64,000 nucleotides of DNA from Ehretia macrophylla (lineage: Eukaryota; Streptophyta; Magnoliopsida; Boraginales; Ehretiaceae). Positions within the stretch are counted from its first letter, which is position 1; every line of letters begins with the position of its first letter. The stretch covers positions 13,759,501-13,823,500 of the forward strand of contig CM075765.1 of NCBI GenBank assembly GCA_037974665.1, written 5' to 3'. This document shows positions 4,991 to 59,011 of the stretch, piece by piece. Under the pieces are notes generated by a model. That model did not search any database. It worked only from the letters and a program-made list of their open reading frames with translations, and was not told the DNA's origin. A program made the position numbers and the translations under genes.

Positions 4991-6014
4991 ATGTCCACAA
5001 AAATGTCTCTAGCTATCTTTCTCATTTCTTTCTTCTTCTATTGTTGGTACAGACAGCCAACTCAGAAGCCAATATCTGGCTTTCGGCTAGCTCAACAATG
5101 GCCATCAGCATTTTGTAATTTAAACCCTGACAAGTGTAACAGGACTCGGGTACTTACCGTGATAAACTTCACCATCCATGGCCTGTGGCCATATGACTCC
5201 AAGGGTAGCTCGATTCATCCACCTTGCGGAGGGTCTAACTTCGATGGTTCGATGGTGAGTGATGTAGTTTAATATATTGCAATTTTTTTCCGCACTTCCG
5301 ATCGTCTTTGCATTTTACAGTACTCGGCCATGATGTTTAACTAATTATATAATATTGTTTGATCATCCATGTACAGGTTAAGAATATTACTAAAGAACTC
5401 GACAAGGCATGGCCTAACTTTGACATGAAGAAGAAAAATGTAGACTTTTGGCGTAAAGAATGGGAGAAACATGGCCGATGCTCTCAGAGTTTGCTCAATC
5501 AGACGAGTTACTTTGAGACTACCATTCACCTGAAGAACGAGTTTAATATTTTTAAGACGCTGGAAAACGCTGGTATGTATAGACGAATACTAGTTATTAA
5601 TTCGATTTGTCCTAATTCAGTGCTCGATCGAGCTAGCTAGCATTTGATATTGATAGAGTCAGTAGAATTTTAATTTGAGTGGTGCGTACAACATTTTTTG
5701 TATGCGGCGCGTATCCAAAAAATAAATATTACGTTTTGCAAAAGAAGATTATTCATGGCAATATATATGTAGGTATTTACCCAGATAATCGGAAGTATCC
5801 TGCACAGAATGTTTCCGATGCTATCAGCAAGAAGCTAACCTTGCCTGAGTTAAGGTGCGAAAAGAATGCTAATAACACGTTACTGTTATTGGAGGTTCGC
5901 TTGTGCGTTCGTCAAGATGGGAAACAATTCGTGAATTGCAGTTCCAAAGGCAAATCGTGCTTCCCTGATAAAGACTCTGATGATGTTGTCTTCATAGCAT
6001 TGGACTCGGCTTAG
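4991..6014 (+). CDS. T2 ribonuclease R1 (S-RNase/S-like type), three exons
   Basis: Predicted secreted RNase T2, which cleaves RNA through a 2',3'-cyclic phosphate. Exons 4991-5254, 5377-5572 and 5773-6014 have GT-AG introns of 122 and 200 bp (phases 0 and 1) and encode 233 residues. Residues 5-20 form a hydrophobic signal peptide. CAS I is FTIHGLWP (His63) and CAS II is EWEKHGRC (Glu116, Lys119, His120, Cys123), so the catalytic residues are present. Possible N-glycosylation sites include NRT, NFT, NIT and NQT. The mature part has about 31 Lys/Arg against 23 Asp/Glu, a basic protein as is usual for S-RNases. Intron 1 falls where S-RNases carry their hypervariable-region intron; intron 2 is additional. 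I chose this start because it aligns with the MST start of R3; an ATG seven codons upstream (4970) is possible. No F-box gene is visible upstream within the window. Confidence 0.88.
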
Positions 6015-6217
6015 TGTGTATATATACAGTATATATGCTAACTAAATAATTTAATCAGAGTACTATAGATGATAATAAGATTTTATCAGTTGGCAAATGG
6101 CAAATCTTATTAAACATTGAACGGGGTTGAAATTTAGTACGCTCATTATAATTGTAGTACACAACACAACTTCAGTGGGAAATATTCTAGTATGCGCTTA
6201 CTCTTGTTAAATACTCT

Positions 6218-6219
<2 letters not shown>

Positions 6220-6287
<68 letters not shown>

Positions 6288-6290
6288 ATT
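6220..6290. repeat. compound microsatellite (TC)n(TA)n(TG)n
   Basis: Uninterrupted TC, then TA, then TG dinucleotide runs about 200 bp after the R1 stop codon. Confidence 0.9.
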
Positions 6291-6325
6291 TATAATATAT
6301 GTGAAGGTAAGGACCAAGTAGTTAA

Positions 6326-20696: not shown

Positions 20697-20753
<57 letters not shown>

Positions 20754-21074: not shown

Positions 21075-21136
<62 letters not shown>

Positions 21137-25738: not shown

Positions 25739-26941
25739 ATGATGATAAGTGGGAATTTGCATGAAGATGTGATGATGAACATATTGGCAAGGCTTCCCGC
25801 AAAATGTCTAGTGCGATTCAAGAGTGTTTGCAAATCATGGCAGGCACTGGTGGCAGATCCCAATTTCATAGACAAACACTTTGAAACCAGAGCTCGTATT
25901 ACTAAAAATAGTTGTATCCTCTTTGCACGTCGAACCGTGCCTGCAATTCTTTGCGACATTGATATGGAGGATGTTGTACTTTCTCTGCTTATTCATGACG
26001 ACGACGAAAAAACAACAATCAGATGTGTTGATCTGGAGCTACCTCAACTGGTCCCGAAAGGATCACCCAACGATTTGTTGAGTGATGAGCGGGGCATATT
26101 TTGTGTTGCGTATACGTCACAACGTGACATTTTCGTTTTCAATCCTGCTACTAAAGAATTTAAGGCCCTTCCAACAAGTGATTATCCCAAAGAACCACCA
26201 AACACTTGTCATTGGGAAAATTTTCTTGCATTTGGTTTCGATCATAAAACGAATGATTATCAAGTGGTGAAAATTTTGACTTTTCGCCATTTACCCCTGC
26301 ATGATGTACCGGCCTCGTACTCGTATAAGGTACAACAATACAGCCTGAAGAATCCTGATCAATAATGGAAGGAGATCAATGTCACTGTTCCGCATGGTAT
26401 CTTTACATCTGATGGTGAGGGCTGCTCCATTTATTTAAAAGGAAAATTTTACTGGCGCTCCGCAGATTCTTGCTTGCCAGAGAGACTCTTTGTATATGAT
26501 TTTAGCAATCAAACATTTGATGTGTTACAGTTGCCTGATCCACCCACAGCAGGATTCATGGGGGATAATTATTACGGTTATTGGGCGGCGTGTGTTGCTT
26601 TCAATGATACCATTGCTTTGGTCAGTTTACCTATTCCCACCGATAACTACCTCAGGGAGATTTGGTTAATGCAGGATGAACACCTCCAAGACCACGAAGG
26701 TCGAGACCCGCGTGTTGTTGTTCATGTGTCTTGGGCTAAATTTATGACTACAGACATGCTAGCGACGAATCTCACGGTAGCGGGATCTTGGAAGAATGGT
26801 CAATGTTTACTTGTTTGTGATGACAATTATAAGCTTCTTTCCATCAATTTGTGTACCCAAGAAATTACAGATCTTGAGATTGAGTTGGATGATTCGATAC
26901 TACCTCTTGTTTATAACGAGAATCTATCCAGTTTTACTTAG
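25739..26941 (+). pseudogene. SLF/SFB-like F-box gene F1, interrupted
   Basis: Homologue of F2 and F3 along its whole length. The N-terminal F-box (residues about 4-50, including LPAKCLVRFKSVCKSW) is intact, and the F-box-associated part follows (FNPATKEFKALP, FGFDHKTNDYQVVKI). A TAA at 26363-26365 stops the frame after 208 residues. The same frame then continues with clear homology (LPERLFVYDF, FMGDNYYGYW) to a TAG at 26939-26941, six residues short of the F2 end. Around the first stop the sequence is two codons shorter than F2. A short 208-residue F-box protein could still be made, but it would lack most of the substrate-binding part. It lies 1.5 kb before the broken RNase R2. Confidence 0.85.
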
Positions 26942-28461: not shown

Positions 28462-29728
28462 ATGTTGAAGTACCTATTGATATCCACAATGAAGTCTCTA
28501 ACTCTCCTTCTGGTAATGTGCTTTTTTTTTTTTTTTTTTCTGTTGTTGCTACAGGCAGTCAACTCAGTAGCCATCTGGGTATCGGCTAGCTCAACTTTGG
28601 CCTGATGCATTTTGTAATTTCAACGTTATTTGTAATAGGACCAAATTGAACAAAGTGATAAACTTTACTATCCATGGCCTGTGGCCATATGACTCCAACG
28701 GTCAATCCATTCCTCCAGCATGCCAAGGGTATAAATTCAACATATGACTCCAACGGTCAATCCATTCCTCCAGCATGCCAAGGGTATAAATTCAACGTTT
28801 CGATGGTGAGTGACATAGGTTAATATTGCTATTTTTTTCGCATTTCGATTATTTTTGCATTCTACAATACTCCATGTTAATCAAAAGTATGTAAATATAG
28901 GCAAATTAAGGCCTATTATAATTAATTTTTCCCTTTATCGATCTCTTGATCATTTGTGATGAACACGGAGTAAACTTGCATATTTCATTCTACTCATTGT
29001 TATATATACAAATCATGCCTACAGTATATCTTTAAAAATATATTTAACCAACTAATTATATAATATTGTTTGATCATGATCTACAGGTTCAGAATATTAA
29101 GACTGAACTTTGTTAACAAAGCATGGCCTTACTTCAGTATCCGGGATAGGAGAAATGAAAAGTTCTGGAGATACGAATGGGTAAAACATGGAAGATGGTC
29201 TGAGAGTTTGCTCGATCAGAAGAGTTACTTTGAGATTGCCCTCCACCTGAAGAACAAGTTTGATATTTTCGAGACGCTGCAAGATGCTGGTATGTTATAT
29301 AGACTACAAGTAAATATTAATTCTGTCTTAATTCGGTTTTCGATCGAGCTAGCTAGCTAGCATTTGATAATATTGCTAGAGTCAATATAATTTTAATTTG
29401 AGTGGCACATACTCAACATTTCTATCTAATAAATAAATATTATGTTTTGCATGAGAAAATTATTCATGGAAATATATATGTAGGTATTCTCCTAGATGAT
29501 CAGAGCTATAGTCCTCAAGATGTTTTTGACGCTATCAGCAAGAAGCTAAACTTTGAGCCCGAGTTAAGATGCCAAGAGAATGCTAATGGAAAGTTATTGT
29601 TAAAGGAGGTTTACTTGTGCGTTGATCAACTTGGGCAACAATTCGTGAATTGCGGCTTCAAAGGCAAATCGTGCTTCCTTCCTCAATACTCTAATCATGT
29701 TGTCTTCAAAGCATTAGCCTCACCTTAA
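28462..29728 (+). pseudogene. T2 ribonuclease R2, degraded copy
   Basis: Three-exon T2 RNase remnant (about 28462-28805, 29087-29289 and 29484-29728; splice signals as in R3). Damage: the T run in the signal peptide has grown to 18 T, shifting the frame; a TAG lies at 28568-28570 in the mature frame; a 55-bp tandem duplication (28687-28741 and 28742-28796) shifts the frame after CAS I; exon 2 has a net 4-bp insertion and a TAA at 29114-29116; and the CAS II cysteine is replaced by Trp (HGRW, codon 29196-29198). CAS I (FTIHGLWP) and exon 3 are preserved. The closest relative in the window is R3, with exon 3 nearly identical in protein. It cannot encode an active enzyme. Confidence 0.92.
28687..28796 (+). 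repeat. 55-bp tandem duplication inside R2 exon 1
   Basis: Two perfect adjacent copies of a 55-bp unit starting ATATGACTCCAACGG. 55 is not a multiple of three, so it breaks the frame. Confidence 0.95.
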
Positions 29729-33797: not shown

Positions 33798-34994
33798 ATG
33801 ATAATTAGTGGGAATTTGCCTGACGATGTGATGATGAACATATTGACAAGGCTTCCCGCAAAATGTCTCGTGCGATTCAAGAGTGTTTGCAAATCTTGGC
33901 ACGCACTGGTGGCTGCAGATCGCAATTTCATAGACAAACACTATGAAACCAGAGCTTGTATTACTAAAAATAGTTGTATCCTCGTTGCACGTCGAACCGT
34001 GCCTGAAATTCTTCGCGACATGCTTAGGGAGGATGTTGTACTTTCTCTGATTTATGACGAAAAGACAACAATCAGATGTGTTGATTTGGAGCTACCTGAA
34101 ATCGTCCCGAAAGGATCACCCTACGTGTTGAGTGATCAGCGCGGCATATTTTGTGTTGCGTATATGCGACAACGTGACATTTTCATTTTCAATCCTGCTA
34201 CTAAAGAATTTAAGGCCCTTCCGACTAGTAATCATCCCAAAGAACCACCAAACACATGCCATTGGCAACATTATCTTGCATTTGGTTTCGATCATAAAAC
34301 GAATGTTTATCAAGTGGTGAAAATTTGGACTTTTCGCCATTTACCCCTGCGTGGTGTACCGGCCTCGTACTCGTATAAGGTACAACAATGCAGCCTGAGT
34401 AGTGAATCGGCCAGCTGCATCTGGAAGGAGATCAATGTCACTGTTCCGCATGGTATCTTTACATCATCTCATGGGGGCTGCTACATTTATTTAAGAGGAA
34501 AATTTTACTGGCGCTCCGGGGATTCTCGCTTGCCAGAGAGACTCTTCGTATATGATTTTAGGAATCAAACCTTCGATGTGTTACAGTTGCCTGATCCACC
34601 CACAGCAGGATTCATGGGCGATAATTATTGCGGTTATTGGGCGGCGAGTGTTGTTTTCAATGATACCATTGCTTTGGTCAGTTTACTTATTCCGACCGAT
34701 AACAACCGCAGGGAGATTTGGTTAATGGATGAACACCAAGCGAGAGACCATGTTGTTCATGTGTCTTGGGCTAGATTTATGACTACAGACATGCTAGGGA
34801 AAAATTGCATCGTAGTGGGATCTTGGAAGAATGGTCATTTGCTTGTCTGTGGTGACAATGCGAAGCTTTTCTCCATCAATTTGTGTACCCAAGAAATTAC
34901 AGATCTTGAGATTGAGTTGGATACTTCTGTAAAACCTCTCGTTTATAACGAGAATCTATCTAGTTTTACTTTGATCGGATCGCATACTTGGTGA
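33798..34994 (+). CDS. SLF/SFB-like F-box protein F2
   Basis: Single-exon gene of 398 residues, the usual length and structure for S-locus F-box-like proteins. The F-box at residues about 4-50 (LPDDVMMNILTRLPAKCLVR, then FKSVCKSW) would bind Skp1 in an SCF ubiquitin ligase. The remainder is an F-box-associated region with FNPATKEFKALP, FGFDHKTNVYQVVKIW, LFVYDFRNQTFDVLQLP and a C-terminal LVYNENLSSF block resembling the family's VY-x-E-SL motif. It is cytosolic by family. In self-incompatibility such proteins bind non-self S-RNases; that role here is inferred only from family and from linkage to R3 downstream. It differs from F3 at two residues (Ala315 and Asp317 here, Asp and Gly in F3). The start fits the homologues: an ATG after an A-run. 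Confidence 0.9.
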   Translation: MIISGNLPDDVMMNILTRLPAKCLVRFKSVCKSWHALVAADRNFIDKHYETRACITKNSCILVARRTVPEILRDMLREDVVLSLIYDEKTTIRCVDLELPEIVPKGSPYVLSDQRGIFCVAYMRQRDIFIFNPATKEFKALPTSNHPKEPPNTCHWQHYLAFGFDHKTNVYQVVKIWTFRHLPLRGVPASYSYKVQQCSLSSESASCIWKEINVTVPHGIFTSSHGGCYIYLRGKFYWRSGDSRLPERLFVYDFRNQTFDVLQLPDPPTAGFMGDNYCGYWAASVVFNDTIALVSLLIPTDNNRREIWLMDEHQARDHVVHVSWARFMTTDMLGKNCIVVGSWKNGHLLVCGDNAKLFSINLCTQEITDLEIELDTSVKPLVYNENLSSFTLIGSHTW

Positions 34995-35689
34995 TCATCC
35001 GATATACTATATATAGAGGGTTTCACTAGTGTCTGTTATCCGAAATTGAAACAATCAAGCTTCAAACAATATACTTTTCGATCTACTAATTAACCTTTGT
35101 GAGTCTTTTCTATATATCTAGTTGATTTACTTTGCTACCATTTCATTACTTTATCACAAAATTCTATTTTGATATTTGATTATGGGCGACTAAGTGGTTG
35201 TCTTATGCTGGAAGGGTTGAAAGATCATCAAGGCCATCTTTTCTAAATTCCTTAGGAAACACCATGCTAATCAAAAGGGGGAGCCAAAGTGGCATGGTGG
35301 TGGTACTTGGGTATTATTGTTGCCTCAAACCAAGTGGTACTTTAACCACTTCTATAAAAGGGGTATAGAAAATATTTAAAGCAGCTTCCATCCCGCATGT
35401 TTCCAAATTGCAATAACCCATATGATCAAAAGTTATAATTTCTTTTTCCTTGTTGCAATCCTTCCTTAAAAGGTACAATCATCCAAGCAAAGTTATCACA
35501 TTATTCTCTTTTTAATTTTCTCCTAAAATAGTTTTCTAAAAGCTAGGCCTAGCAATTTCGATTCATTTACTATATATAAATACAACTCTTTGTACATTAA
35601 TATTATAAACTATCATTTTCAAATGCTAACCTCACGAGATATTAGAGTCTAGGCTACCAAACAGTCTTATTTTTAAGTATATATCGCCA
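34995..35689. other. F2 downstream region
   Basis: Non-coding and homologous to 56073-56767. The first ~300 bp are identical to block B by eye; differences then appear at about one to two percent. Confidence 0.6.
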
Positions 35690-35889
35690 TGAAGATATTT
35701 AGCTAACAAGATTAGTTAGAGTTAGTGAGTTGAGCACGTGATTGCACGTGGAGGTTCTAGAAGAAATAGCCAGCTGTCATCTATGTAAACTAACCTGAGC
35801 TACTTGTATATATAGCTCAAAGATATATCAGATTCATTCTTATGCAATGCAATTATATTTTCTTCTCTCACATTCTCTCAATTTTGTCA
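35690..35889 (+). repeat. 5' LTR of the young copia element
   Basis: 200 bp, TGAAGATATT to TTTTGTCA, followed at once by the primer binding site. Confidence 0.92.
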
Positions 35890-35902
35890 TGGTATCAAGA
35901 GC
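35890..35902 (+). promoter_or_regulatory. primer binding site
   Basis: TGGTATCAAGAGC, complementary to the initiator tRNA-Met 3' end apart from one extra A. Confidence 0.85.
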
Positions 35903-35994
35903 ACCATAAGACCTTTGTCTTCTTCGATCCAGAGGACTCCATTTTTTTTTCTGCAACATCGCAAAGCTCATTACAGTGCTTCTAAGCTGCTCTA

Positions 35995-38900
35995 ATGGTG
36001 ACAACTACATCTCAGGACCTTCCTTCAGGTCTTCGCCTCCTTATTCAGAATCTGAATTCTCTGATTCAGCTGAAACTGGACAATTCAAACTACATATTGT
36101 GGAAAGCGCAGCTCCAAGCAGTTCTTGAAGCTACACAGCTCCTAGAGCATGTCAATGGAAGCTTGCCATGTCCACCGAAGCTTGTTGAAGACGATAATGG
36201 AGAACTTGTTTCTAATCCTAAGTTTCTCTCATGGCAGTAAACAGATCAACATATTCACACCTGTCTCTTTGCTTCTATTACGCCACAGGTGCTTCCTCAA
36301 GTACTTTCTTTGAAAACATCACATTCTATTTGGTCAGCTCTTGAGCAGCGCTTCAATTCCTTGTCTCGCTCGCATATTCATCAGCTAAAAATGAAGCTTT
36401 GCATACTTTCTAAGACTTCTCAGTCGATGCAATCTTATCTCGATGAAGTCAAAACGATCACTGATAGTTTAGCAAATGTGGTTGAGATAGTTAAAGAAGA
36501 CGACTTGATCTTGTACATTCTTAAAGGATTACTTACTGAGTATGATGCCTTTAAAGCCTCAATTCGAGTTCGATCTAACCCTATCTCTGTGGCTGAGCTA
36601 TCTTGTTTGCTTCTCTCTGAAGAACTTCATCTGCAATTGTCTAATTCATTGAAAATCACTGATTCTCCAAACAATGAACTTCACTCTGCCCTCACGGCTC
36701 AACAAATCACATATTCTGCTAATAATCAACGAGGCCGCGGTAGACAAAACTCTAGAGGAGGTAGGAATCACATAGGACAAGGCAGAGGTAGCTACTTTGG
36801 TAGAGGACAACACAGTTCAACATCTCCAACTCAGTCTAAAGTCTCTTCCTATGAGAATGTTGTTTTGTGTCAGATTTGTGGTAAACGGAATCACATTGCT
36901 TTAGATTGCTGGCATCGCTTGGACATATCAAACTATTGCAGCACCAAACCTAGCAAACAGGTAATAGCTGCTCAACTCAATCAATATCCTCCTACTGACA
37001 CACCTTGGTTCTTGGACACAGGTGCGAATACTCATGTCACCTCTGATCTCTCTTAATTGATCTATCCTCAACCATATGATGGCATGGAAACCATTTCAGT
37101 GGGCAATGGACAAAATCTGCCAATTGCACACACTGGACATGGTAAAATTCATACTCATATCTCTTCCTTTGCTCTCAATCAAGTCTTACATGTGCCTCAA
37201 ATATCCTCAAACCTGTTGTCAGTCTATCAATTAGCCAGGGATAACAATGTCACTCTCCTTTTTGATTCTCATAAGGTACTAATCATTGACAATTTGACTC
37301 GTCAGGTTCACTTCCAGGGCCCCTGTAAAGGAGGTCTCTACCCTCTGCCATCAAGCATTCACAAAACTTCCAGTCCTCAAGCCTTGCAGTACACAAGTGT
37401 AGCTTCTCTGCCTACTGTTAACACACTCTGGCACCTAAGGCTAGGGCATCCTTCAAGACAAGCTCTTCATCCTCTATCATCTGTATTACCTATATCTTCA
37501 ACTAATAATAAACTTGTCTGTGAGTCTTGTATGGTTGCTAAATCACATAAACTTCCCTTTCAATTGTCAAATTCTGTCACTAGAAAGCCGTTTGAACTAA
37601 TACATGCTGATGTTTGGGGACCTGCTTCTGTTGTTTCCTTTAGTAATTTCAGATATTACTTACTGTTTGTTGATGATTTTAGTAGATACTCTTGGATCTA
37701 TCCATTGAAATCTAAAGGAGACTCTTACTCTGCCTTTCTTGCCTTTACGGCCTTAGTCAAAAATCAGTTTGACACAACAATTAAAATTTTCAGAACTGAT
37801 AATGGTCTTGAGTTTGTCAACAAGAGTTTTGGCTTATACCTGCAGTCTATAGGCACTTTACATCAAACATCTTGTCCCTATACCCCTGAGCAGAATGGAA
37901 GAGTAGAAAGGAAACATATGCACTTAATAGAAACAGTAATATCCTTGCTTCATCAAGCTCACTTACCACCAATATTTTGGCTTGAGGCTTTGTCTACAGC
38001 TAATTATCTCATTAATAGAATGCCCAAGTCTATTCTGAATAATAAATCCCCTTTTGAGTGCTTATACTGCACCACTCCTGATTATAGTGTCCTTAAAGTG
38101 TTTGGCTGCCTTTGTTTTCCATGGTTGAGACCTTATACCAAGCATAAATTAGAGCCTAGATTAGTTCCCTGCTTATTTCTTGGATATTGTCCTCACTCCA
38201 AAGGATATAGGTACCTCAATCTCACTACAAACCAAGTATATGTTTCTCGACATGTGAGATTTTTATGAGCATGTCTTCCCTTTTCCAAAGTTGTGCTCTT
38301 CCATGTCTAAGAGTCCTTCTAGCAGTCTGCCCTTTCCCCCTTTGTTCTTCACTACCTCTGAGTCTTCTAATTCTCCCAGCTGCACTAATTCCCCTAACTC
38401 TTCTACTGTAGTTCTTAACTTTGCAGAACCTACTCCAAACAACTCTCCTATTGAACTCCATTCTTCTGCAAATGCCTCAACCCAAGCATCTGTAGATTCT
38501 TCCTTAGTGGACATTCCTAGCTCAGTCATTCCTCCTGCACCACCTACTCTAATTCATCCCCTACAACCTTGTTATCCAATGACAACGAGATCCAAAACAG
38601 GATCTTTAAAGCCTAGGATCTTTGCAGTCACTTCCTTACTTCATTCTCCTCTTGAAACTGAGCCCTCCACTTATAAAGAGGCATCCAAATCTCCTTATTG
38701 GCAAAGGGCTATGGCTGAGGAATATCAAGCATTGGTTAAACAAAACACATGGCTTCTTGTCCCACTACCTCCAAAGAGGCAACCTATTAGTTGTAAATGG
38801 GTATATAAGGTCAAAAGACATGCCGATGGCAGCATAGCTAGGCACAAAGCAAGGCTAGTCGCCAAGGGATATCATCAAGAATACGGCCTAGATTATGGCG

Positions 38901-40261
38901 AAACATTTAGTCCAGTTGTCAAAGCTCAAACAGTTAGAATTGTGCTCTCTTTAGCTATGCATTTCAACTGGGAACTTAGACAATTGGATGTATCAAATGC
39001 CTTTCTTCATGGGGCACTTCAAGAGGAGGTTTATATGGTGCAGCCTCAGGGATTTGAGAGTAGTCAACATCCCAATTATGTGTGTAAGCTTCAGAAGTCC
39101 TTGTACGGACTCAAACAGGCCCCAAGGGCCTGGTATCAACTCTTGCATTCCTTTTTGGTGTCACAAGGATTTCTATGTAGCAAGGCTGACACATCATTGT
39201 TTGTCAAGCACACTTCCACTTGCAGCATCATTGTATTGGTTTATGTAGATGACCTTGTGGTCACTGGCAGTGATCCAACATCTGTCAGCTCACTTATTCA
39301 AACTATGCACACAAAGTTTGCAATGAAAGACTTGGGCAAATTGTCTTATTTTTTGGGAATTGAGGTTGAGTACAACTCCAAAGGCATCTTACTTCATCAG
39401 ACTAAGTATGCAAAAGATCTTATTAACAAAGCTAGGATGAAAGCATGTAAATCTAGTCCTACACCTGCTGCAGTATCTCAATCCTATGGTTCTACTGCCT
39501 CTCAACTCCCTTACTCCTCCCCCACTCAATTTTGAAGTTTGGTTGGGGCGTTGCAGTATCTTACCATAACAAGGCCTGATTTGTAATACTCTGTCAATGC
39601 AATATGTCAGAAAATGCACTCTCCATCTCAGGCTGATTTTACTGCTCTTAAAAGGATCATCAGATATATTCAAGGCACCCTTGGCCATGGCCTTCAGTTC
39701 CAATCAAGTCCTCTTCAGCTAAATGCCTTTTCGGACTCAGATTGGGCTTCAGATTCACTGACTCGCAGATCGACAACTGGATATTGCATTTATCTTGGCA
39801 AGAATTTGGTGTCTTGGTGTTCAAAACGACAGCCTACAGTCGCACGATCCTCTACGGAGGCAGAATATCGAGCGATGGCTTACACTGCTGCTGAGCTTCG
39901 ATGGTTATCTTATGTGCTCAAGGATCTTGTTGTTTCTTCTTCTTGTCCTACCTTGTGGTGTGATAATGCCTCAGCTCTTGCATTGGCTGCAAATCCAGTA
40001 TTTCATAGCCGTACAAAGCACATTGCACTCGATTATCATTTCGTTCGAGAGCAAGTTATTCATCAGCAGCTTACTGTCAAGCATATTTCATCTGCAGAAC
40101 AAGTGGCTGACTTGTTCACTAAACCTTTGTCGACTGCGTCTTATCTCTACCTTCGTGGAAAGCTTCCCATTGCTCACTCAATGCTCAGCTTGAGGGGGCA
40201 TGATAAAGCACAAGAGGAGAACCAAGCTCAGTTCACTGTACAATTTAGCACCAGCTCATGA
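35995..40261 (+). pseudogene. copia gag-pol polyprotein with stops and a frameshift
   Basis: Domains in order: gag (from 35995), zinc knuckle CQICGKRNHIALDC near 36870, protease WFLDTGA near 37007, GAG-pre-integrase LWHLRLGH near 37430, integrase (VWGPA near 37613, RTDNGLEF near 37795, EQNGRVERKH near 37888), reverse transcriptase (YVDDLVVTG near 39243) and RNase H (DSDWASD near 39737, LADLFTKPL near 40107). Lesions: TAA at 36238-36240, TAA at 37054-37056, a one-base length change in the T run at 38260-38264 that leads to a stop at 38266-38268, TGA at 39533-39535 and TAA at 39584-39586. Otherwise the frame is continuous. The final stop is the TGA that begins the 3' LTR. It cannot supply its own proteins. 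Confidence 0.93.
40190..40200 (+). promoter_or_regulatory. polypurine-tract-like site, 58 bp from the LTR
   Basis: TTGAGGGGGCA followed by TG, the usual look of a plant copia polypurine tract and LTR start. It lies 58 bp before the 3' LTR start defined by comparison with the 5' LTR, where no purine tract is present. Confidence 0.5.
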
Positions 40262-40458
40262 AGATATTTAGCTAACAAGATTAGTTAGAGTTAGTGAGTT
40301 GAGCACGTGATTGCACGTGGAGGTTCTAGAAGAAATAGCCAGCTGTCATCTATGTAAACTAACCTGAGCTACTTGTATATATAGCTCAAAGATATATCAG
40401 ATTCATTCTTATGCAATGCAATTATATTTTCGTCTCTCACATTTTCTCAATTTTGTCA
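40259..40458 (+). repeat. 3' LTR of the young copia element
   Basis: 200 bp, 198 identical to the 5' LTR. Followed by the target duplication TATCGCCA. Confidence 0.92.
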
Positions 40459-40466
40459 TATCGCCA

Positions 40467-42425
40467 TCACTTATTTAAAGCGTTAAAACTATCCACATAC
40501 AAGAATAAAAAATAAATCTCGCTTACACGTACCAATGCATGTTAAGTTCAATTATAAGCAAACTATACGTCAATTGTAAAGGAGAGGCGCTTCTCGATGA
40601 TCCAATTCAACTTCAAGATTTTCTAGTCTTGGGTACAAGGATCGGCAGATAAATATTTTCAGATGACATCAACTATAAGCAAACTATACGTCAATATTAT
40701 ATCCTGCTATATGTCATCAGCTAGAATCCGATGGGATTTTCGTTTGTTCTGTATATACTTATGTTGTATAAATAATCACTCTCGTTAATTTGTTTTGTAC
40801 ATTCTTATTTTCCACTGATGACATCGATCATAAGCAAACTAAATATTGAAAATTATTTATTCGAAAAGCAGACATCAACAGCACCATCAAGGAATACCAA
40901 GTGATGACCCAATACTGGAGAAGAGCCTTGGCCAAATAGCCTGTCCTTTTCTTTTGTATATATAAATACTCACTCTACTCCTCATTAAAAATAATTAAAA
41001 CCAGACCTGTTTTAGAATTTGAGTTGACATATTGTGGTATCGCAATTACCTCAAACTATTCGTGTTTTCTAGAAGGTGGTACATTCAGCCTAGACTTTAA
41101 CTTCATTTACGAAAATAATGAAATGATGATAATGCCCTTCACTAAATATTCACAACACAATCTGGCCTCTCATGCTTTTTGTAACAAGCTGAATACCCCC
41201 TATATTCCGACCCAGAAAAAAAAAAAAAACAAATACCCCCTATATCGAATTATCACATAAAATATACAGTACCTCCCTGTGCTTTTCTTTCAGATGCACA
41301 ATACACCCTTGGGCTTAAAATACACTATACTCCCTTGTGCTTATCATAATTTGCTGGTTACCCACATTCCTAAAAGGTGGTTATACCCTCTCTATTTTAT
41401 TGACGTGATCTCATTAAATTCTTATTTTGTAAAAATATTTCACATAACCATAGTCACAAATGCCAATGACCTAACGTCACAAAGTTAGTGCAAGAGGTGA
41501 ACATGTCGTTAACTTTAAAGGATCAACTAATGATAAGGAGTATTTGCACACAATATTTTGCAAAACACAAGTAATTTATGAGATAATTGTGGTAGAATGC
41601 TTATTCATTAAACCATAGGGAAGTATGGTGTATTTTACGTGTTTTTCAAAATCAAAATACAGCCTCTCAGAGCGAGCTACTTGCACTCAGTCTCTATTTG
41701 CTCTGATTGAAATGAAATACAAAGTTCTTTTTTCTCTCTCTCTTTTTTGGTGTGAGATATCCTAAGTTAAAATGCTTATACTTTTCTTCGCTTTTTTTGA
41801 CATAAATATTTATAATTTTGTCGTATAGCAACAATGAATCAAGTATCAATAAGTAACTAATCTCTAAAATTCATATATCCCATAATTAATTAGTTGTGGA
41901 TGTCATTTTCTTATCACTCTGCAGGCCTTTCCCTATTAATTAATGTGCATGAGATCGGAAGATCGAAAATGATTTCCAGAAAGTCATGAACATAGGTACT
42001 ACCATTCCTTTGAATGGAATGTAAAGACGCGTATGATGCATCCAAATATTGCCCTAGCAAACTATCAAGCTTTTATTTCCCTACCACAACATATATATAC
42101 AAACTTAAATGCACGTAGAGTATGTATCTTCGGATGTCTATTAATATCATGATCATGCAAAATTGGAAAACCTATACTTCCTAACCCTCTTTGTTCTTTC
42201 TTGTTTTTTCCCGGTTCACTTGGAAGCCATGCAATAGGCTACAAAAGGGATGCACATATGTAGTATGGTATAGTGGTCTTGTTATATCTAGTAATTATTC
42301 AATGTATTGCATGTGAACATCACATCATACTTGATCTTCTTTACATATTATCTTCTTTTTCATTGTTTATTGTGTTTTCTTAGTTAATTGAAACTTAAAT
42401 ATGCCACTGAGGATGCTTCTGTCCC
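40467..42425. other. F2-R3 intergenic region, R3 upstream
   Basis: Collinear with 56768-58738. From about 42170 it also matches the R2 promoter. Apart from the MITE-like piece at 41258-41638, no gene or element is seen. Confidence 0.6.
41258..41638. mobile_element. MITE-like element, copy A
   Basis: The left end TAAAATATACAGTACCTCCC resembles the complement of the right end (GTAAAATACACCATACTTCCC). The same element is in block B at 57572-57952, so it predates the duplication. Related end sequences occur at 46807 and 50461. Target duplication not resolved. Confidence 0.45.
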
Positions 42426-42433
42426 TATACAGA
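42426..42433 (+). promoter_or_regulatory. mutated TATA position of RNase R3
   Basis: TATACAGA where R1, R2 and R4 have TATAAAA in the same flanking sequence. Two substitutions relative to the duplicated copy (58739-58746). Confidence 0.7.
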
Positions 42434-42484
42434 CCCCAGCACAATTGCAATTTCTTCAAGTCTGAAATGTTAAGGTACCAATTG

Positions 42485-43567
42485 ATGTCCACAATGAAGT
42501 CAATAACTCTACTTCTGATCATGTTCTTCTTTTTCTGTTGTTGCTACAGCCAGCCAACTCAGCAGCCATCTGGGTATCGGCTAGCTCAACAATGGCCATC
42601 AGCATTTTGTAATTTAAACCCTGCCATTTGTGACAGGAATCAGTTACACTCCGTGATAAACTTTACCATCCATGGCTTGTGGCCATATGACTCCAAAGGT
42701 CAATCGATTCCACCATGCCAAGGGTCTAACTTTGATGTTTCGATGGTGAGTGATTTAGTTTAACATTGCAATTTTTTTTCGGCACTTCCTATCCTCTTTG
42801 TTTTTTACAGTACATATATACTCCTTGTTAATCAAAAGTATGTAAATATATATAGGAAAATCAAACTGGCCTGTTAATTTTCCTCTTTTCTCTTGATCAT
42901 ATTTTGTGATGAACACGTACGGAGTAAATTTGCACATTTTGTTCAACTCATTATTGTATATACAAATCAAGCATACAGCACATCTTTAATTAATTAATTA
43001 CATAATATTGTTTGATCATCCACAGGTTGAGAATATTAGGGATGAACTCAACGAGGCATGGCCTACCTTCAATATCCGGGATATGGGAAATGAAAACTTC
43101 TGGAAATACGAATGGGAGAAGCATGGAAAATGCTCTGAGAGTTTGCTCGACGGGAAGAGTTACTTTGAGACCGCCCTTCACCTGAAGAACAAGTTTGATA
43201 TTTTCAAGACGCTGCAAGATGCTGGTATGTTATATATATAGGCGAATACTACTCATTAATTTTGTCTTAATTCAGTAGTTTACACGAGAAAATATATTAT
43301 TCGTATATATATATATATATAGGTATGGTCCCAGATGATCGGAGCTATAGTCCTCAGGATGTTTTTGACGCTATCAGCAAGAAGCTAAACTTTGAGCCCG
43401 AGTTAAGCTGCCAAGTGAATGCTAATGGAAAGTTATTGTTAAAGGAGGTTTACTTGTGCGTTGATCAACTTGGGCAACAATTCGTGAATTGCGGCTTCAA
43501 AGGCAAATCGTGCTTCCTTCCTCAATACTCTAATCATGTTGTCTTCATTGCATTGGCCTCGGCTTAA
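42485..43567 (+). CDS. T2 ribonuclease R3 (S-RNase/S-like type), three exons
   Basis: Secreted RNase T2 by family. Exons 42485-42745, 43026-43224 and 43323-43567 (introns of 280 and 98 bp, phases 0 and 1, GT-AG) give 234 residues. An in-frame ATG at 42467 would add six. Residues 5-20 are a Phe/Cys-rich hydrophobic signal peptide. CAS I FTIHGLWP (His63) and CAS II EWEKHGKC (Glu116, Lys119, His120, Cys123) are complete, as are the C-terminal cysteines (CGFKGKSC). The mature protein has about 19 Lys/Arg against 24 Asp/Glu and so should be acidic, unlike R1. It carries far fewer N-glycosylation sites than R1. The promoter has lost the TATA consensus. Its partner F-box is F2, about 2.7 kb upstream without the copia insert. 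Confidence 0.9.
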
Positions 43568-47655: not shown

Positions 47656-47742
47656 CTTTATAAGATCTTGCGCTACTTTGGACCCCCAAAACCTCCAAAA
47701 TTTTTCTTTTAACATATGTAATATTATATAAAAAGAAAAATG

Positions 47743-50875: not shown

Positions 50876-51535
50876 AGATATATATGCGCGGGAATGCAAT
50901 ATGAACAAAATAACTTACAACTTAACCAAATTAAAAGACAAAACTAAAATCGAAATACAAACAATAAAAAATACAAGAATAAAATACTTAAAAGAAACTC
51001 GCAATCTCGATTATGTAATTACACATGAAATCGAATAAGTGAACTAGCAAAAGTAATACTAAAGTAAAAATAGCTAATTAGATATGAAAACGAGTAGGCA
51101 AACTTATATAGAAGTTGTAATCTCAATATAATAATCGAGTAAGCTGACTTATGTAGAAGTTGCAATCTCAAAGAAGGCGAAAATAAAAAATAAAGAATCT
51201 ACGCAGTCTCGACCATGTAATGACACATGAGGTCGAGTAGGCGATAACTAAGAAAATGAAAAGACTGAAAGAAATGAAGCAAAAGAGAAAGGAAACTGAA
51301 AAATCAAAAAGTAGAAATACTTACTTGGAGAAAATTGATTAATGCAGTAAACTTGAAATGTAATAACCGAGGCCTGATCAAACCAATGTTTCCAACAGCA
51401 GGGAATACAAGATGGAGACAAGAGACTCACTGCAGATTCTGATTCTGCAATAACAAGTTTATTAAGAGTGAAACACTTCTATTCAAGCATCTCCATGCCC
51501 AATCAAGGCCAAAAGCATTTCCTCATAGTCCCCTG

Positions 51536-52052
51536 CATAGTTATCAGAATCATACGATTCACGATTCGAATCTTACGATTCGATTCGATTCATAAGAAAA
51601 ACGATACGAATCAGCATGCGAATCGAAAATATACATGAATCGCACTGAATTATTGTGAATCTTATGATTCAACATACGATTCATTGCAATGCTACATATA
51701 CATCAAGTCTCATTGTTTTTTGTTTCTCTTTTCTTCTATGTCCAAACCATAACAAAGCATAGTCAACCATAATAAAAATAGCCAAAGTGAAGACACAAAG
51801 ACCTTTACTAGTGTTGTTGGCTAAAATCCTTGATAAAGTTGAAGGTGATGAAGAGATAAGTGTAGTTGTTGTGGTTAATAATGTTGTTGTGATGACCTTT
51901 TTATTAGTTTACTTTAAAGATTCATACAAATATAGAGTTATAAATTCAATTTTGAATGTGAACGAATCGTTACGATTCACGATTCGATACGGTTCACGAT
52001 TCAAAAAAATGATATTTCGATTCGCGATACGATTCACGATTTGACAACTATG
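51536..52052. mobile_element. hAT-like MITE in block B
   Basis: 517 bp, absent from block A (junction near 31583). It is flanked by GTCCCCTG (51528-51535) and GTCCCTTG (52053-52060), an 8-bp target duplication with one mismatch. The left end CATAGTTATCAG and the complement of the right end (CATAGTTGTCAAATC) form imperfect TIRs. Both arms are filled with ACGATTCG/CGAATCGT words. The 8-bp duplication suggests hAT. Confidence 0.8.
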
Positions 52053-53028
52053 GTCCCTTGAGGTCCTGCATGCAGCCATCAATCGCTTCGTTGTATGAAA
52101 TGTATTTTTAACCAAGATTTGAAGTTAAAGTATCGAGTTAGCAATTACAGATGGTGATGGCAAGACTCGAAACACAAAAATTTGAATATCACTTTCAAAT
52201 TGTAGAAAAGATCGATAAGTTTAAAAAGATTAATAAATCTTCATATGTTTTCTCGACTCTCGATTAACTTGAGAAATCTTTGGGGGAATGTTAATTCCTT
52301 ATGATTTTAGAGGGCTTATAGTATTCATACTGGCGTAATAACACAAACTTTAGTATCAAGACAGCTAGTAATGCTATGATATATACCTTGTTGATAGCAT
52401 TTCCAAAATGATCATTATAGTGGTTGAGTGTTGCATTGATTTGTGCTTTACTCCTTGTAGTCCGAATCCTGAAGAGCTCATCATCGTTGTAAGCTTTCTC
52501 AGAGATCTTCTCGTGAAGTATTTTAGCCTCTGATCGTGCCAATGTCATGTTAACCTCTTCCCCTTTGTAGCGGAATGCACCCACAAGAGGGACCAAAAGC
52601 TGTTACAGAATTTAGCAAACATTAAAAGCACATGAAAACTAATTAATTTTTTTTATATTATTTAAGTAATTAATTTTTATTTAATAATAATTAATTGAAA
52701 ATGTGACGGAAATGGAAGTGCGAGTAGGTGAAGGTGATATAGAGTGAGAGGAAAATGCTTTCTTCTCCCAAAAGAAATGAAAATATTTTTTTCACTCTTT
52801 TTAACTAAATATTTTCTTTTGACAAAAAATATTTTTCGATTAATCAATTTTTCAATATTATCAAAATACCAAAAAATTAGAAAAATATTTTACACCAAAC
52901 AAACGGAGTCAGGGAGTCTTGAAATAAAATAACGTGCTCTGGAATTGACTTTATCTTTTCTGTTCATATTCAATTTAAGATTGGAGTAGTGAGCTATCAG
53001 AGCTAGGGAATCTTGACAAAAAGAAAAT

Positions 53029-54080
53029 GGACTTGACTCCTGTACAATTCTCTTCTCTACAATTCTATACAATACCTGTTCAGATTTGTGACACATGTCA
53101 CAAAATATTATCTACGGACTATATTAATCTTAGTAAACTAATCTTCCAACCATGGTTTGAAAACATTAAATACCAAGATCTAAACTGCCATATTTAGCAA
53201 AACAAGTATGGTATGATTATAAAAACAAAAAGCAAGCAATTTTTATTCTAAACGAAAAAAGAAAAAAAAAAGAAGAAGAAGCCATAGACTGAAAAAAAGA
53301 AAACAAAGAGAAAGTCATAGAAATGCACATAGAGAAGAAATTATATTAGATTCCTCTAGCTCTACATATTTCAATAAAACACTATAATAGTTTCTATGCA
53401 GCTCAGATATATGATGAGATGACCAAAAAAATTGATAGAACACAAGTGAAAATTTTCATACCTCAAATATATTTTTTATTTTTATTTTGTAGGATAATGG
53501 AAATCAACTGCAATGAATCCCAAGCAATCCTTTTTCATGTTCCATAAGTGAATCCTTCTTTACCAATGAAATTGGGGATAGAATTCGAATAAGATGAAGA
53601 TGCCTGTATTTAATTTAATAAGTATGCAGGTGCCGTTGACTTCAGTATTCCCAAGAATTTCATAAATAGAAGTGAAGTCCGATCTTTTTTTGTTTTTTGG
53701 CTACAGTAATAATGTAAAGTCCATTCTTATGTAACATCAAAGATTTACATATTTTTTTTGCTACAGTAACAAAGTAAAGTCCGTTCTTTTTTTTGCTACA
53801 GTAGAAGGTTACAGAGTGAAAGATAGGCGAGATGCCATGATTAATTAAGAAACATATTCTTTTATTTTTTATTTTGCATGATAATGAAAATCAACTGCAT
53901 AGATTTGTTTTGTTAAATATGGTAGTTTAAATTTGGTATTTAGTGTTTTTTAACCATAGTTGGAAGATTAGTTTTTCAAGATTAATACAGTCCATAGATA
54001 ATATTTGGTGACACTTGTCACTAATCCGAATAGGTATTGTATAGAATTGTAGATAATAGAATTGTAGAGGAGCCAAATCC
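53029..54080. mobile_element. long-TIR (MULE-like or foldback) element in block B
   Basis: About 1052 bp, absent from block A at the matching site (33074). 53029-53205 is the imperfect inverted complement of about 53905-54080; for example CTACAATTCTATACAATACC at the left has its complement GGTATTGTATAGAATTGTAG at the right. TIRs are about 175 bp and roughly 85-90 percent alike by eye. The interior holds repeated GCTACAGTAA pieces and A-rich DNA with no transposase. Flanks are A-rich, so a 9-bp duplication cannot be read with confidence. Confidence 0.8.
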
Positions 54081-54105
54081 AAAAAAAACAAGAAGCCAGG
54101 GAGTA

Positions 54106-54875
54106 ACTCGTCTATTTTCTCGTGACTCGTGAATTAATCACTGACGAAGGACAAGATCGATGATTTATTGTTAATCAGAGGATGGTAAATTTTAATGCCC
54201 CATAATTAATATGAAAACTGGAGAAGTCATCAAATGTTTTTAGGCATGAAAAATTAACTGTCCGAATAATTAGGAATTAGATGGAATTGTAGTGAGTGAG
54301 CAATAGTGAAACGGGTCAAATATTAAATGCATTAATCATCTATCTTTTGCAAGTTGTTACTACATAGATGACAAATTTTTGGAGTAATACTTCATGTTTT
54401 CCCTTCACCTCTTTATCCCCTATTTTGTATGGTATGATTTTCTTGTACTGAATATTAAATATGATCCTATATATGTATATATATAAATTTCTCCTATATA
54501 AGGAAGAATGAAAGAAATATATTTTATAATAAGAAAAAATATTCGTGTATTAAATATCAAATCTTTCATTATATGGTAAAAATTCTAGGGGTGATATATA
54601 AATTAAGGAATGTTTAAAATTTTAATGCCGCAGAAATATCTAGAGATCGATAAGGGAATGAGTTAAATGGTTTAAACTCACACATGAAAAGATCATTATC
54701 ACTCCAAGAATTAAGCATAATAAAAATGGAATTTTAGAGTGTGAACAGATGTGAAACGAATCAAATTAATATTAAATGCATATTAATACTACCTTTATAT
54801 CTCTCCCTCTCCGCTACAGGTTTTGTTTTCTCAATAGCTCTTTTCAACCCTTCTTACCCTTTCGACCCCAAAAAA
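54106..54875 (+). promoter_or_regulatory. F3 upstream region
   Basis: Homologous to the F1 and F2 upstream regions. It keeps the TTTTTAGGCATGAAAAATT segment that F2 lacks. Differences from F2 begin immediately before the ATG. Confidence 0.45.
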
Positions 54876-56072
54876 ATGATAATTAGTGGGAATTTGCCTG
54901 ACGATGTGATGATGAACATATTGACAAGGCTTCCCGCAAAATGTCTCGTGCGATTCAAGAGTGTTTGCAAATCTTGGCACGCACTGGTGGCTGCAGATCG
55001 CAATTTCATAGACAAACACTATGAAACCAGAGCTTGTATTACTAAAAATAGTTGTATCCTCGTTGCACGTCGAACCGTGCCTGAAATTCTTCGCGACATG
55101 CTTAGGGAGGATGTTGTACTTTCTCTGATTTATGACGAAAAGACAACAATCAGATGTGTTGATTTGGAGCTACCTGAAATCGTCCCGAAAGGATCACCCT
55201 ACGTGTTGAGTGATCAGCGCGGCATATTTTGTGTTGCGTATATGCGACAACGTGACATTTTCATTTTCAATCCTGCTACTAAAGAATTTAAGGCCCTTCC
55301 GACTAGTAATCATCCCAAAGAACCACCAAACACATGCCATTGGCAACATTATCTTGCATTTGGTTTCGATCATAAAACGAATGTTTATCAAGTGGTGAAA
55401 ATTTGGACTTTTCGCCATTTACCCCTGCGTGGTGTACCGGCCTCGTACTCGTATAAGGTACAACAATGCAGCCTGAGTAGTGAATCGGCCAGCTGCATCT
55501 GGAAGGAGATCAATGTCACTGTTCCGCATGGTATCTTTACATCATCTCATGGGGGCTGCTACATTTATTTAAGAGGAAAATTTTACTGGCGCTCCGGGGA
55601 TTCTCGCTTGCCAGAGAGACTCTTCGTATATGATTTTAGGAATCAAACCTTCGATGTGTTACAGTTGCCTGATCCACCCACAGCAGGATTCATGGGCGAT
55701 AATTATTGCGGTTATTGGGCGGCGAGTGTTGTTTTCAATGATACCATTGCTTTGGTCAGTTTACTTATTCCGACCGATAACAACCGCAGGGAGATTTGGT
55801 TAATGGATGAACACCAAGACAGAGGCCATGTTGTTCATGTGTCTTGGGCTAGATTTATGACTACAGACATGCTAGGGAAAAATTGCATCGTAGTGGGATC
55901 TTGGAAGAATGGTCATTTGCTTGTCTGTGGTGACAATGCGAAGCTTTTCTCCATCAATTTGTGTACCCAAGAAATTACAGATCTTGAGATTGAGTTGGAT
56001 ACTTCTGTAAAACCTCTCGTTTATAACGAGAATCTATCTAGTTTTACTTTGATCGGATCGCATACTTGGTGA
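54876..56072 (+). CDS. SLF/SFB-like F-box protein F3
   Basis: 398 residues, single exon. Almost identical to F2: I see three base differences in the whole coding region, at 55819, 55820 and 55825, changing Ala315 to Asp and Asp317 to Gly. F-box at residues about 4-50, then the F-box-associated region with the same motifs as F2. By family it is the substrate-recognition subunit of an SCF ubiquitin ligase. An upstream in-frame ATG at 54741 would add 45 residues, but that stretch aligns with non-coding DNA before F2, so I use 54876. The downstream partner RNase R4 is dead. F3 therefore has no functional RNase next to it in the window, unless sequence beyond 64000 supplies one. Confidence 0.9.
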   Translation: MIISGNLPDDVMMNILTRLPAKCLVRFKSVCKSWHALVAADRNFIDKHYETRACITKNSCILVARRTVPEILRDMLREDVVLSLIYDEKTTIRCVDLELPEIVPKGSPYVLSDQRGIFCVAYMRQRDIFIFNPATKEFKALPTSNHPKEPPNTCHWQHYLAFGFDHKTNVYQVVKIWTFRHLPLRGVPASYSYKVQQCSLSSESASCIWKEINVTVPHGIFTSSHGGCYIYLRGKFYWRSGDSRLPERLFVYDFRNQTFDVLQLPDPPTAGFMGDNYCGYWAASVVFNDTIALVSLLIPTDNNRREIWLMDEHQDRGHVVHVSWARFMTTDMLGKNCIVVGSWKNGHLLVCGDNAKLFSINLCTQEITDLEIELDTSVKPLVYNENLSSFTLIGSHTW

Positions 56073-58738
56073 TCATCCGATATACTATATATAGAGGGTT
56101 TCACTAGTGTCTGTTATCCGAAATTGAAACAATCAAGCTTCAAACAATATACTTTTCGATCTACTAATTAACCTTTGTGAGTCTTTTCTATATATCTAGT
56201 TGATTTACTTTGCTACCATTTCATTACTTTATCACAAAATTCTATTTTGATATTTGATTATGGGCGACTAAGTGGTTGTCTTATGCTGGAAGGGTTGAAA
56301 GATCATCAAGGCCATCTTTTCTAAATTCCTTAGGAAACACCATGCTAATCAAAAGGGGGAGCCAAAGTGGCATGGTCGTGGTACTTGGGTATTATTGTTG
56401 CCTCAAACCAAGTGGTACTTTAACCACTTCCATAAAAGGGGGATAGAAAATATTTAAAGCAGCTTCCATCCCGCATGTTTCCAAATTCCAATAACCCATA
56501 TGATCAAAAGTTATAATTTCTTTTTCCTTGTTGCAATCCTTCCTTAAAAGGTACAATCACCCTAGCAAAGTTATCACATTATTCTCTCTTTAATTTTCTC
56601 CTAAAATAGTTTTCTAAAAGCTAGGCCTAGCAATTTCGATTCATTTACTATATATAAATACAACTCTTTGTACATTAATATTATAAACTATCATTTTCAA
56701 ATGCTAACCTCTTGAGATATTAGAGTCTAGGCTACCAAACAGTCATATTTTTAAGTATATATCGCCATCACTTATTTAAAGCGTTAAAACTATCCACATA
56801 CAAGAATCAAAAATAAATCTCGCTTACACGTACCAATGCATGTTAAGTTCAATTATAAGCAAACTATATGTCAATTGTAAAGGAGAGGCGCTTCTCGATG
56901 ATCCAATTCAACTTCAAGATTTTCTAGTCTTGGGTACAAGGATCGGCAGATAAATATTTTCCGATGACATCAACTATAAGCAAACTATACGTCAATATTA
57001 TATCCTGCTATATGTCATCAGCTAGAATCCGATGAGATTTTCGTTTGTTCTGTATATACTTATGTTGTATAAATTATCACTCTCGTTAATTTGTTTAGTA
57101 CATTCTTATTTTCCACTGATGACATCGATCATAAGCAAACTAAATATTGAAAATTATTTATTCGAAAAGCAGACATCAACAGCACCATCAAGGAATACCA
57201 AGTGATGACCCATGCATAGGCATACTGTAGAAGAGCCTTGGTCAAATAGCCTGTCCTTTTCTTTTGTATATATAAATACTCACTCTACTCCTCATTAAAA
57301 ATAATTAAAACCAGACCTGTTTTAGAATTTGAGTTGACATATTGTGGTATCGCAATTACCTCAAACTATTCGTGTTTTCTAAAAGGTGGTACATTCAGCC
57401 TAGACTTTAACTTCATTTACGAAAATAATGAAATGATGATAATGCCCTTCACTAAATATGCACAACACAATCTGGCCTCTCATGCTTTTTGTAACAAGCT
57501 GAATACCCCCCTATATTCCAACCCAGAAAAAAAAAAAAAAAAACAAATACCCCCTATATCGAATGATCACATAAAGTATACAGTACCTCCCTGTGCTTTT
57601 CTTTCAGATGCACAATACACCCTTGTGCTTAAAATACACTATACTCCCTTGTGCTTATCATAATTTGCTCGTTACCCACATTCCTAAAAGGTGGTTATAC
57701 CCTCTCTATTTTATTGACGTGATCTCATTAAATTCTTATTTTTTAAAAATATTTCACATAACCATAGTCACAAATGCCAATGACCTAAAGTCGCAAAGTT
57801 AGTGCAAGAGGTGAACATGTCGTTAACTTTAAAGGATCAACTAATGATAAGGAGTATTTGCACACAATATTTTGCAAAAAACAAGTAATTTATGAGATAA
57901 TTGTGGTAGAATGCTTATTCATTAAACCATAGGGAAGTATGGTGTATTTTACATGTTTTTCAAAATCAAAATACAGCCTCTTAGAGCGAGCTACTTGCAC
58001 TCAGTCTCTATTTGCTCTGATTGAAATGAAATACAAAGTTCTTTTTTCTCTCTCTCTTTTTTGGTGTGAGATATCCTAAGTTAAAATGCTTATACTTTTC
58101 TTCGCTTTTTTTGACATAAATATTTATAATTTTGTCGTATAGCAACAATGAATCAAGTATCAATAAGTAACTAATCTCTAAAATTCATATATCCCATAAT
58201 TAATTAGTTGTGGATGTCATTTTCTTATCACTCTGCAGGCCTTTCCCTATTAATTAATGTGCATGAGATCGGAAGATCGAAAATGATTTCCAGAAAGTCA
58301 TGAACATAGGTACTACCATTCCTTTGAATGGAATGTAAAGACGCGTATGATGCATCCAAATATTGCCCTAGCAAACTATCAAGCTTTTATTTCCCTACCA
58401 CAACATATATATACAAACTTAAATGCACGTAGAGTATGTATCTTCGGATGTCTATTCATATCATGATCATGCAAAATTGGAAAACCTATACTTCCTAACC
58501 CTCTTTGTTCTTTCTTGTTTTTCCCGGTTCACTTGGAAGCCATGCAACAGGCTACAAAAGGGATGCACATATGTAGTATGGTATAGTGGTCTTGTTATAT
58601 CTAGTAATTATTCAATGTATTGCATGTGAACATCACATCATACTTGATCTTCTTTACATATTATCTTCTTTTTCATTGTTTATTGTGTTTTCTTAGTTAA
58701 TTGAAACTTAAATATGCCACTGAGGATGCTTCTGTCCC
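56073..58738. other. F3-R4 intergenic region, R4 upstream
   Basis: Collinear with 34995-42425 minus the copia element. Around 56760 it preserves the empty target site of that element (TATATCGCCATCACTT). Contains the MITE-like copy at 57572-57952. No gene seen. Confidence 0.65.
57572..57952. mobile_element. MITE-like element, copy B
   Basis: Counterpart of 41258-41638 in the duplicated block, with the same imperfect inverted ends. Confidence 0.45.
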
Positions 58739-58746
58739 TATAAAAA
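58739..58746 (+). promoter_or_regulatory. TATA box of pseudogene R4
   Basis: TATAAAAA, intact, in the same context as R1 and R2. Confidence 0.6.
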
Positions 58747-58779
58747 CCCCAGCACAATTGCAATTTCTTCAAGTCTGAA

Positions 58780-59011
58780 ATGTTAAGGTACCAATTGACG
58801 TCCACAATGAAGTAAATAACTCGACTTCTGATCATGTGCTTCTTTTTCTGTTGTTGCTACAGCCAGCCAACTCAACAGCCATCTGGGTATCGGCTAGCTC
58901 AACAATGGCCATCAGCATTTTGTAATTTAAACCCTGCCATTTGTGACAGGAATCAGTTACACTCCGTGATAAACTTTACCATCCATGGCTTGTGGCCATA
59001 TGACTCCAAAG
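58780..59011 (+). pseudogene. T2 ribonuclease R4, exon 1 fragment cut by copia
   Basis: Duplicate of R3 exon 1. The ATG at 58780 is present, but the twelfth codon is TAA (58813-58815; TCA in R3), and the second ATG used for R3 is ACG here. The mature part through CAS I (FTIHGLWPYDSK) is preserved. At 59011 the exon is interrupted by the LTR of the Tnt1-like element; the remaining exons are expected beyond the window. Two independent lesions: the stop in the signal peptide and the insertion. A later in-frame ATG (58834) would give only a short truncated product. Confidence 0.92.

Follow-up and report, generated by a model that had tools for sequence, protein, structure and literature searches.

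The stretch C2:13759501-13823500 of Ehretia macrophylla (haplotype b, the one haplotype analysed; genome 1.58 Gb, 20 contigs), 64,000 nucleotides that we call the window, carries F-box genes and T2 ribonuclease (RNase) genes in a tandem arrangement that a preliminary description had likened to a self-incompatibility (S) locus. That description listed four T2 RNases (R1 to R4) and three F-box genes (F1 to F3), all on the forward strand and ordered as a lone R1 followed by the pairs F1-R2, F2-R3 and F3-R4; positions and Pfam matches agree with it. R1, R3, F2 and F3, which it called intact, do have full-length reading frames, R1 and R3 with GT-AG splice sites. R3 matches the Pfam family PF00445 with an E-value of 9.9e-46, and F2 matches the F-box family PF00646 (E 3.3e-10) and FBA_1 (E 7.6e-8). 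Given these values, we reject chance matches as the source of the calls. Two matK pieces inserted in the chromosomes, queried together, are most similar to Boraginales, the order of Ehretia (family Ehretiaceae); the top 13 hits are from Heliotropium, Bourreria, Tournefortia, Tiquilia, Cordia and Ellisia.

The genes fall into types A, B and C. R1 (4991..6014, forward strand; exons 4991-5254, 5377-5572 and 5773-6014) is an intact type A RNase. The type C F-box/FBA gene F1 (25739..26941, forward) has one internal stop, and its partner R2 (28507..29728, outer limits approximate, forward) is a type C pseudogene with a 55-bp tandem duplication at 28686-28796, frameshifts, and no start codon at the position where one is expected. 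The next two pairs are of type B. F2 (33798..34994, forward) is an intact F-box/FBA gene of 398 amino acids, and R3 (42485..43567, forward; exons 42485-42745, 43026-43224 and 43323-43567) is an intact RNase; between them lies a copia-type element (35688..40459, forward), with 203-bp long terminal repeats (LTRs) that are 99% identical, its class judged by eye from reading frames. F3 (54876..56072, forward) is an intact F-box/FBA gene nearly identical to F2. Of its partner R4, the window holds the 5' part of exon 1 (58801..59011, forward), with a stop at codon 6. A second copia-type element, also judged by eye, interrupts this exon from 59012 on (59012..64000, forward); it has the target site repeat CAAAG and 545-bp LTRs with 2 mismatches, and ends about 257 bp past the window. 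With two differing sites in 545 bp, this insertion is recent. R4 as a mere truncation is rejected, as its remaining exons are located past the insertion, outside the window. The same copia-type family has a copy at window positions 1-1892, 95-96% identical where it matches the copy that splits R4. The two type B pairs lie in a duplicated block: copy 1 (31418..42698, forward, in pieces; F2 and R3) spans 11.3 kb including the copia-type element between F-box and RNase, and copy 2 (51372..59011, forward, in pieces; F3 and R4) spans 7.6 kb and is 91-98% identical to copy 1. The two pairs arose by a recent segmental duplication.

An array of about 540 kb (13.764-14.305 Mb on C2) extends rightward from the window, which forms its left end. 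From PF00445 matches, F-box matches and fetched sequence we count 23 RNase genes, 19 of them past the window's four, taking R13, in pieces separated by 10 kb, and R15, in pieces separated by 5 kb, as one gene each. The repetition of the pair, which the preliminary description contrasted with the usual one S-RNase per haplotype, is larger than it described. Nearly all RNases and F-box copies are on the forward strand; among the RNases the one exception is the last, R23. Type A has four members (R1, R7, R16 and the diverged R23), type B ten and type C nine. There are at least 21 F-box copies, of which 16 are about full length, one is split and four are fragments; 104 of 417 candidates were scored, so that F-box counts are lower bounds, and F19 and three further pieces were judged from candidate scoring alone. 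A same-type F-box lies upstream of 9 of the 10 type B RNases (the exception is R6) and of all nine type C RNases, which makes 18 pairs. The three forward-strand type A RNases have no partner F-box among the matches listed, and R23 sits upstream of its nearest F-box. From F-box to RNase, the spacing is 2.66-2.78 kb in six of the nine type C pairs and 6.1-8.1 kb in the remaining three; of the five type B pairs measured, four are spaced at 3.3-4.0 kb. The fifth, F2-R3, is at 8.7 kb because the copia-type element has inserted between its two genes.

The two halves of a pair have been duplicated together. Distances between F-box copies and between the first exons of their RNases agree within types (Mantel r 0.75; 4 of 20000 permutations) and overall (Mantel r 0.96, reached by 10 of 20000 within-type permutations). 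The input is RNase exon 1 and 14 of the 18 pairs, the four pairs with fragmentary F-boxes being omitted. This agreement means that copying involved the pair as a whole, and in the 14 pairs tested the F-box/RNase pair is the unit of duplication. The types also recur along the array in a repeating order (A, C, B and so on), which suggests larger multi-gene duplications besides the copying of pairs. Synonymous divergence (dS) of the F-boxes is 0.002 between F2 and F3, reaches about 0.1 within types, and is 0.13-0.20 between types B and C; with such a spread, amplification is both old and recent.

The RNases of the array are decaying, as the preliminary description had supposed in one of its two alternatives. 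Only 4 of the 23 are intact (R1, R3, R5 and R6, where R5 and R6 are scored with codon 4 as the start). Scored as not intact are R7, which lacks only a start codon, and R15, in which three exons are open, a conserved cysteine is lost and a 5-kb gap precedes exon 3. Nine of the at least 21 F-boxes are intact (F2, F3, F6, F10, F11, F13, F14, F15 and F16). In type C no RNase of nine is intact and five F-boxes of nine are, a contrast (p 0.029) that looks stronger than it is, since several copies have inherited the same stops and deletions. For selective constraint we use the ratio omega in chosen independent pairs (8 of the 9 intact F-boxes, F6 omitted, and 10 of the 13 alignable RNases among the 23), and 5887 aligned sites regarded by us as non-coding provide the neutral expectation. 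Intact F-box pairs have an omega of 0.48 (p 0.003), or 0.54 (p 0.014) under an alternative choice of pairs that includes F6; for six F-box pairs, five of them with a broken member, it is 0.57 (p 0.008). Intact F-box copies are thus under moderate constraint, with omega around 0.5. RNase pairs, mostly of broken copies, look neutral (0.87, p 0.29). Between types, omega is 0.88 for the F-boxes (B versus C) and 1.25 for the RNases (A versus B): divergence between types is fast, and positive selection is not shown.

Gene structure places the RNases near class III. R1 and R3 have just two introns, at positions 5 and 9 and none at position 2 (positions matched by eye); one is a phase 0 intron within the hypervariable region, the other a phase 1 intron behind the "AG" codon. 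Introns 5 and 9 make up pattern III-A, which is listed under class III T2 RNases in passages of PMC5598434; this class has an intron at position 5, optionally joined by 9 or 1, and lacks one at position 2. We reject class II, for which those passages give eight introns versus the two found here, though the tree by itself would allow it. The same source, in the part consulted, gives known S-RNases an isoelectric point (pI) of 8.1-9.7 and, in almost all cases, one intron. With assumed cleavage sites, the mature proteins have a pI of 9.08 (R1), 5.52 (R3), 7.70 (R5) and 7.08 (R6), so that R1 alone of the four intact copies falls within the range. The predicted catalytic histidine motifs are FTIHGLWP in R1 and R3 and FTFHGLWP in R5 and R6, with EWEKHG in all four. 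By eye, R1 and R3 have no CPSSNG-like run; amino acid pattern 4, expected to be absent from S-RNases, is judged here from examples and not by its definition. A search for relatives of R3 gives 10 matches, few and distant. In a 22-row tree the array copies group weakly (62/82) with the S3-RNase of Pyrus, with RNase MC1 and with the RNases of chromosomes 6 and 7 described below, apart from classes I and II.

The array F-boxes carry F-box and FBA domains, and Pfam and NCBIfam scans return only generic F-box families for them. A search for relatives of F2 gives 6 matches, few and distant, the best named one being Petunia S10-SLF14 (E 1.2e-12). In a 14-row tree, four array F-boxes and two F-boxes from contig C1 form a clade (99/98), which lies outside the branch (94/97) that unites Petunia S10-SLF14 with a Lycium relative, one chromosome 6 F-box and one chromosome 7 F-box. 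Identity to Petunia SLF14 is about 25% for the array F-boxes and 34-37% for the single F-box taken from each of chromosomes 7 and 6. The Rosaceae-type SSK1 tail WAFEGVDED has no exact match, which is uninformative because other families have a different tail.

Elsewhere in the genome, a region of chromosome 6 at 63.75-64.37 Mb holds nine full-length, stop-free SLF-like F-boxes: the query copy and eight more that share 59-67% identity with it. These, with further broken copies and fragments, surround an RNase, the only one there among the matches listed, which has an open frame and one phase-0 intron. Its pI is 8.72, and 5.82 without a lysine-rich tail. As it is basic only through this tail, we call it a candidate and no more. 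The coordinates C6:63746466-64372324 delimit this candidate canonical S locus. If the plant's own S locus still functions, the chromosome 6 cluster is a likelier place for it than the array. Three further places have similar genes. On chromosome 7, a second cluster of SLF-like F-boxes (C7:28250524-29152609) comes with degenerate RNase pieces; about 0.8 Mb away, at C7:27444684, is a basic RNase (pI 10.0) with one intron in a hand-made model, which lacks a cysteine downstream of its second histidine. At C1:90320059-90463868 there are two intact F-boxes 48-49% identical to F2, along with further F-boxes and one array-clade RNase that are broken. Since an RNase and F-boxes of the array clades stand within about 150 kb there, the linkage probably predates the array. 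Finally, C9:51059510-51162133 has two array-clade RNases with internal repeats of an N-terminal segment and, among the matches listed, no array-type F-box nearby.

The window also holds other repeats. Two nested pairs of direct repeats (6327-7796/13473-14938 and 3314-4021/15475-16188, 90% and 92% identical) are perhaps transposon ends. Remnants at 47664-48997 resemble, by eye, the reverse transcriptase of a long interspersed nuclear element, and a 113-bp unit is repeated in tandem 3.3 times at 20720-21106, with long TA runs. Within the window there are no Rfam families at gathering score and no tRNAs.

We think that the array is probably an amplified, decaying S-like paralogue cluster that follows an RNase/antidote logic, and not an S locus. 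On this reading, an FBA-type F-box gene with a class III-like T2 RNase gene a few kb downstream was repeated in tandem at least 18 times; the copying came in waves and lasted until recently, and most RNase copies were inactivated by transposons and point mutations. The F-box protein may serve, or may have served, an SCF ubiquitin ligase as its receptor for the secreted RNase. Each unit would then combine a poison with its antidote and determine no mating type; the RNase copies would be dispensable, and the F-box copies would be retained somewhat longer. In the S-locus model, SLFs detoxify non-self S-RNases (passages of PMC8774079). By extension, an F-box gene beside an RNase that its product recognises would form a unit tolerant of its own poison. 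Self pollen could not be rejected by such a cis pair alone, as would be expected of a paralogue cluster but not of a mating-type locus.

Several results weigh against this reading. The trees hold 6 of the 23 array RNases, 4 of the at least 21 array F-boxes and few reference sequences. The preliminary description had taken RNases in classes I or II and F-boxes outside SLF/SFB-like clades, together with non-reproductive expression, as speaking against an S locus. The RNases group with class III, but with weak branch support (62/82), and approximately unbiased tests leave placements in class I (p 0.26) and class II (p 0.20) unrejected; in a PDB search, R3 and R1 are closest to the class I RNases NW and LE, which score above S-RNases. 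The F-boxes do fall outside the Petunia SLF14 branch, yet placing them as its sister is not rejected (p 0.42, 14 rows), and in BLASTP the four array F-boxes score 79-89 bits with Petunia SLF14, above Papaver and Capsella F-boxes, indicating some SLF affinity. As to slower decay of the F-boxes, the proportions of intact full-length copies (9 of 16 F-boxes versus 4 of 16 RNases) do not differ significantly (p 0.15); omega in the five F-box pairs with a broken member is 0.67 (p 0.08); and the omega contrast between F-boxes and RNases, which sets intact F-boxes against mostly broken RNases, is not significant (Fisher p 0.15).

Three other explanations compete with the decaying paralogue cluster, and one more is a variant of it. 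The preliminary description offered a choice between such a cluster and an S locus that multiplied and is decaying. That the array is the species' S locus, now or until recently, is unlikely: a single haplotype has 23 RNases, the RNases have two introns, R3 is acidic, the F-boxes stand apart from the SLF14 branch and are about 25% identical to Petunia SLF14, and chromosome 6 has a more canonical cluster. These points stand against the tight linkage of a pattern III-A RNase with F-box genes, the intact and basic R1 with no paired F-box among the matches listed, and the best named match of F2 and the unrejected sister placement, both of which involve SLF14. That a stress or defence T2 RNase simply expanded in tandem, carrying along an F-box gene whose product does not interact with it, is about equally unlikely. 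In other plants F-box genes do adjoin RNases of classes I and II (passages of PMC5598434), and the class I placement and the nearest solved structures suit this explanation, but both genes were co-duplicated in the 14 pairs tested and the same clades are linked on C1, probably from before the array arose. An assembly artefact, with haplotypes or repeats wrongly placed in tandem, is highly improbable. It could draw on the near-identity of the F2 and F3 blocks and on the published quality value of 34.7 for haplotype b (PMC11153487, in part); the same passages describe an assembly that is haplotype-resolved from HiFi and Hi-C data, and the copies differ in transposon insertions and diverge by degrees, with F-box dS from 0.002 to 0.2. 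Also unlikely is a variant of the poison/antidote logic, in which the array amplifies itself independently of any S locus and the F-boxes are kept to neutralise active R1, R3, R5 and R6 in pollen. If so, antidotes would stay selected and poisons would be free to die, and the array would stand midway from an S locus to a gamete-selection system.

Linked RNase/F-box clusters are one means of following how self-incompatibility arose and was lost. For Boraginales, the papers listed in a literature search include, by titles and the starts of abstracts, no report of RNase-based incompatibility in the order, and none of the 10 of 1006 matches listed in another names Ehretia, which is weak evidence of absence. 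One of the closest likenesses to the decaying paralogue cluster is with the S-like loci of eudicots described by Zhao et al., where, in passages of PMC8774079, class III-type RNases are linked to FBA F-boxes outside the active S locus and are partly inactivated, as in Antirrhinum, whose S-like locus has two S-like SLFs, one of them a pseudogene. The S-like duplicate locus given there is 33 kb long, whereas the Ehretia pair is repeated at least 18 times over about 540 kb, and in our small tree the Ehretia F-boxes are not nested in the SLF branch. The putative relict S loci of Theobroma, Gossypium, Citrus and Phaseolus (Ramanauskas and Igic, passages of PMC5598434) likewise have pattern III-A, with 11 copies in cacao; they have two or three RNases per cluster, compared with 23 in the Ehretia array. 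Many RNase copies, some of them pseudogenes, also occur in Rosa, with 80 S-RNase-like sequences over several data sets (PMC7881130, in part), and in the class III expansion of Malvaceae and Fabaceae (PMC9250077, in part). Unlike what we find in Ehretia, the passages of these two papers drawn on here contain no statement of an F-box/RNase pair as the unit of amplification. In the Ehretia array that unit is the pair and not the F-box alone. Its halves may decay at different rates, and such a difference would offer a test of how RNase and F-box partners depend on each other. With the canonical type-1 S locus of Solanaceae and Plantaginaceae, the array shares the linkage of RNase and F-box genes; the type-1 locus has one basic S-RNase per haplotype and many diverged SLFs, whereas the Ehretia array has many closely similar pairs.

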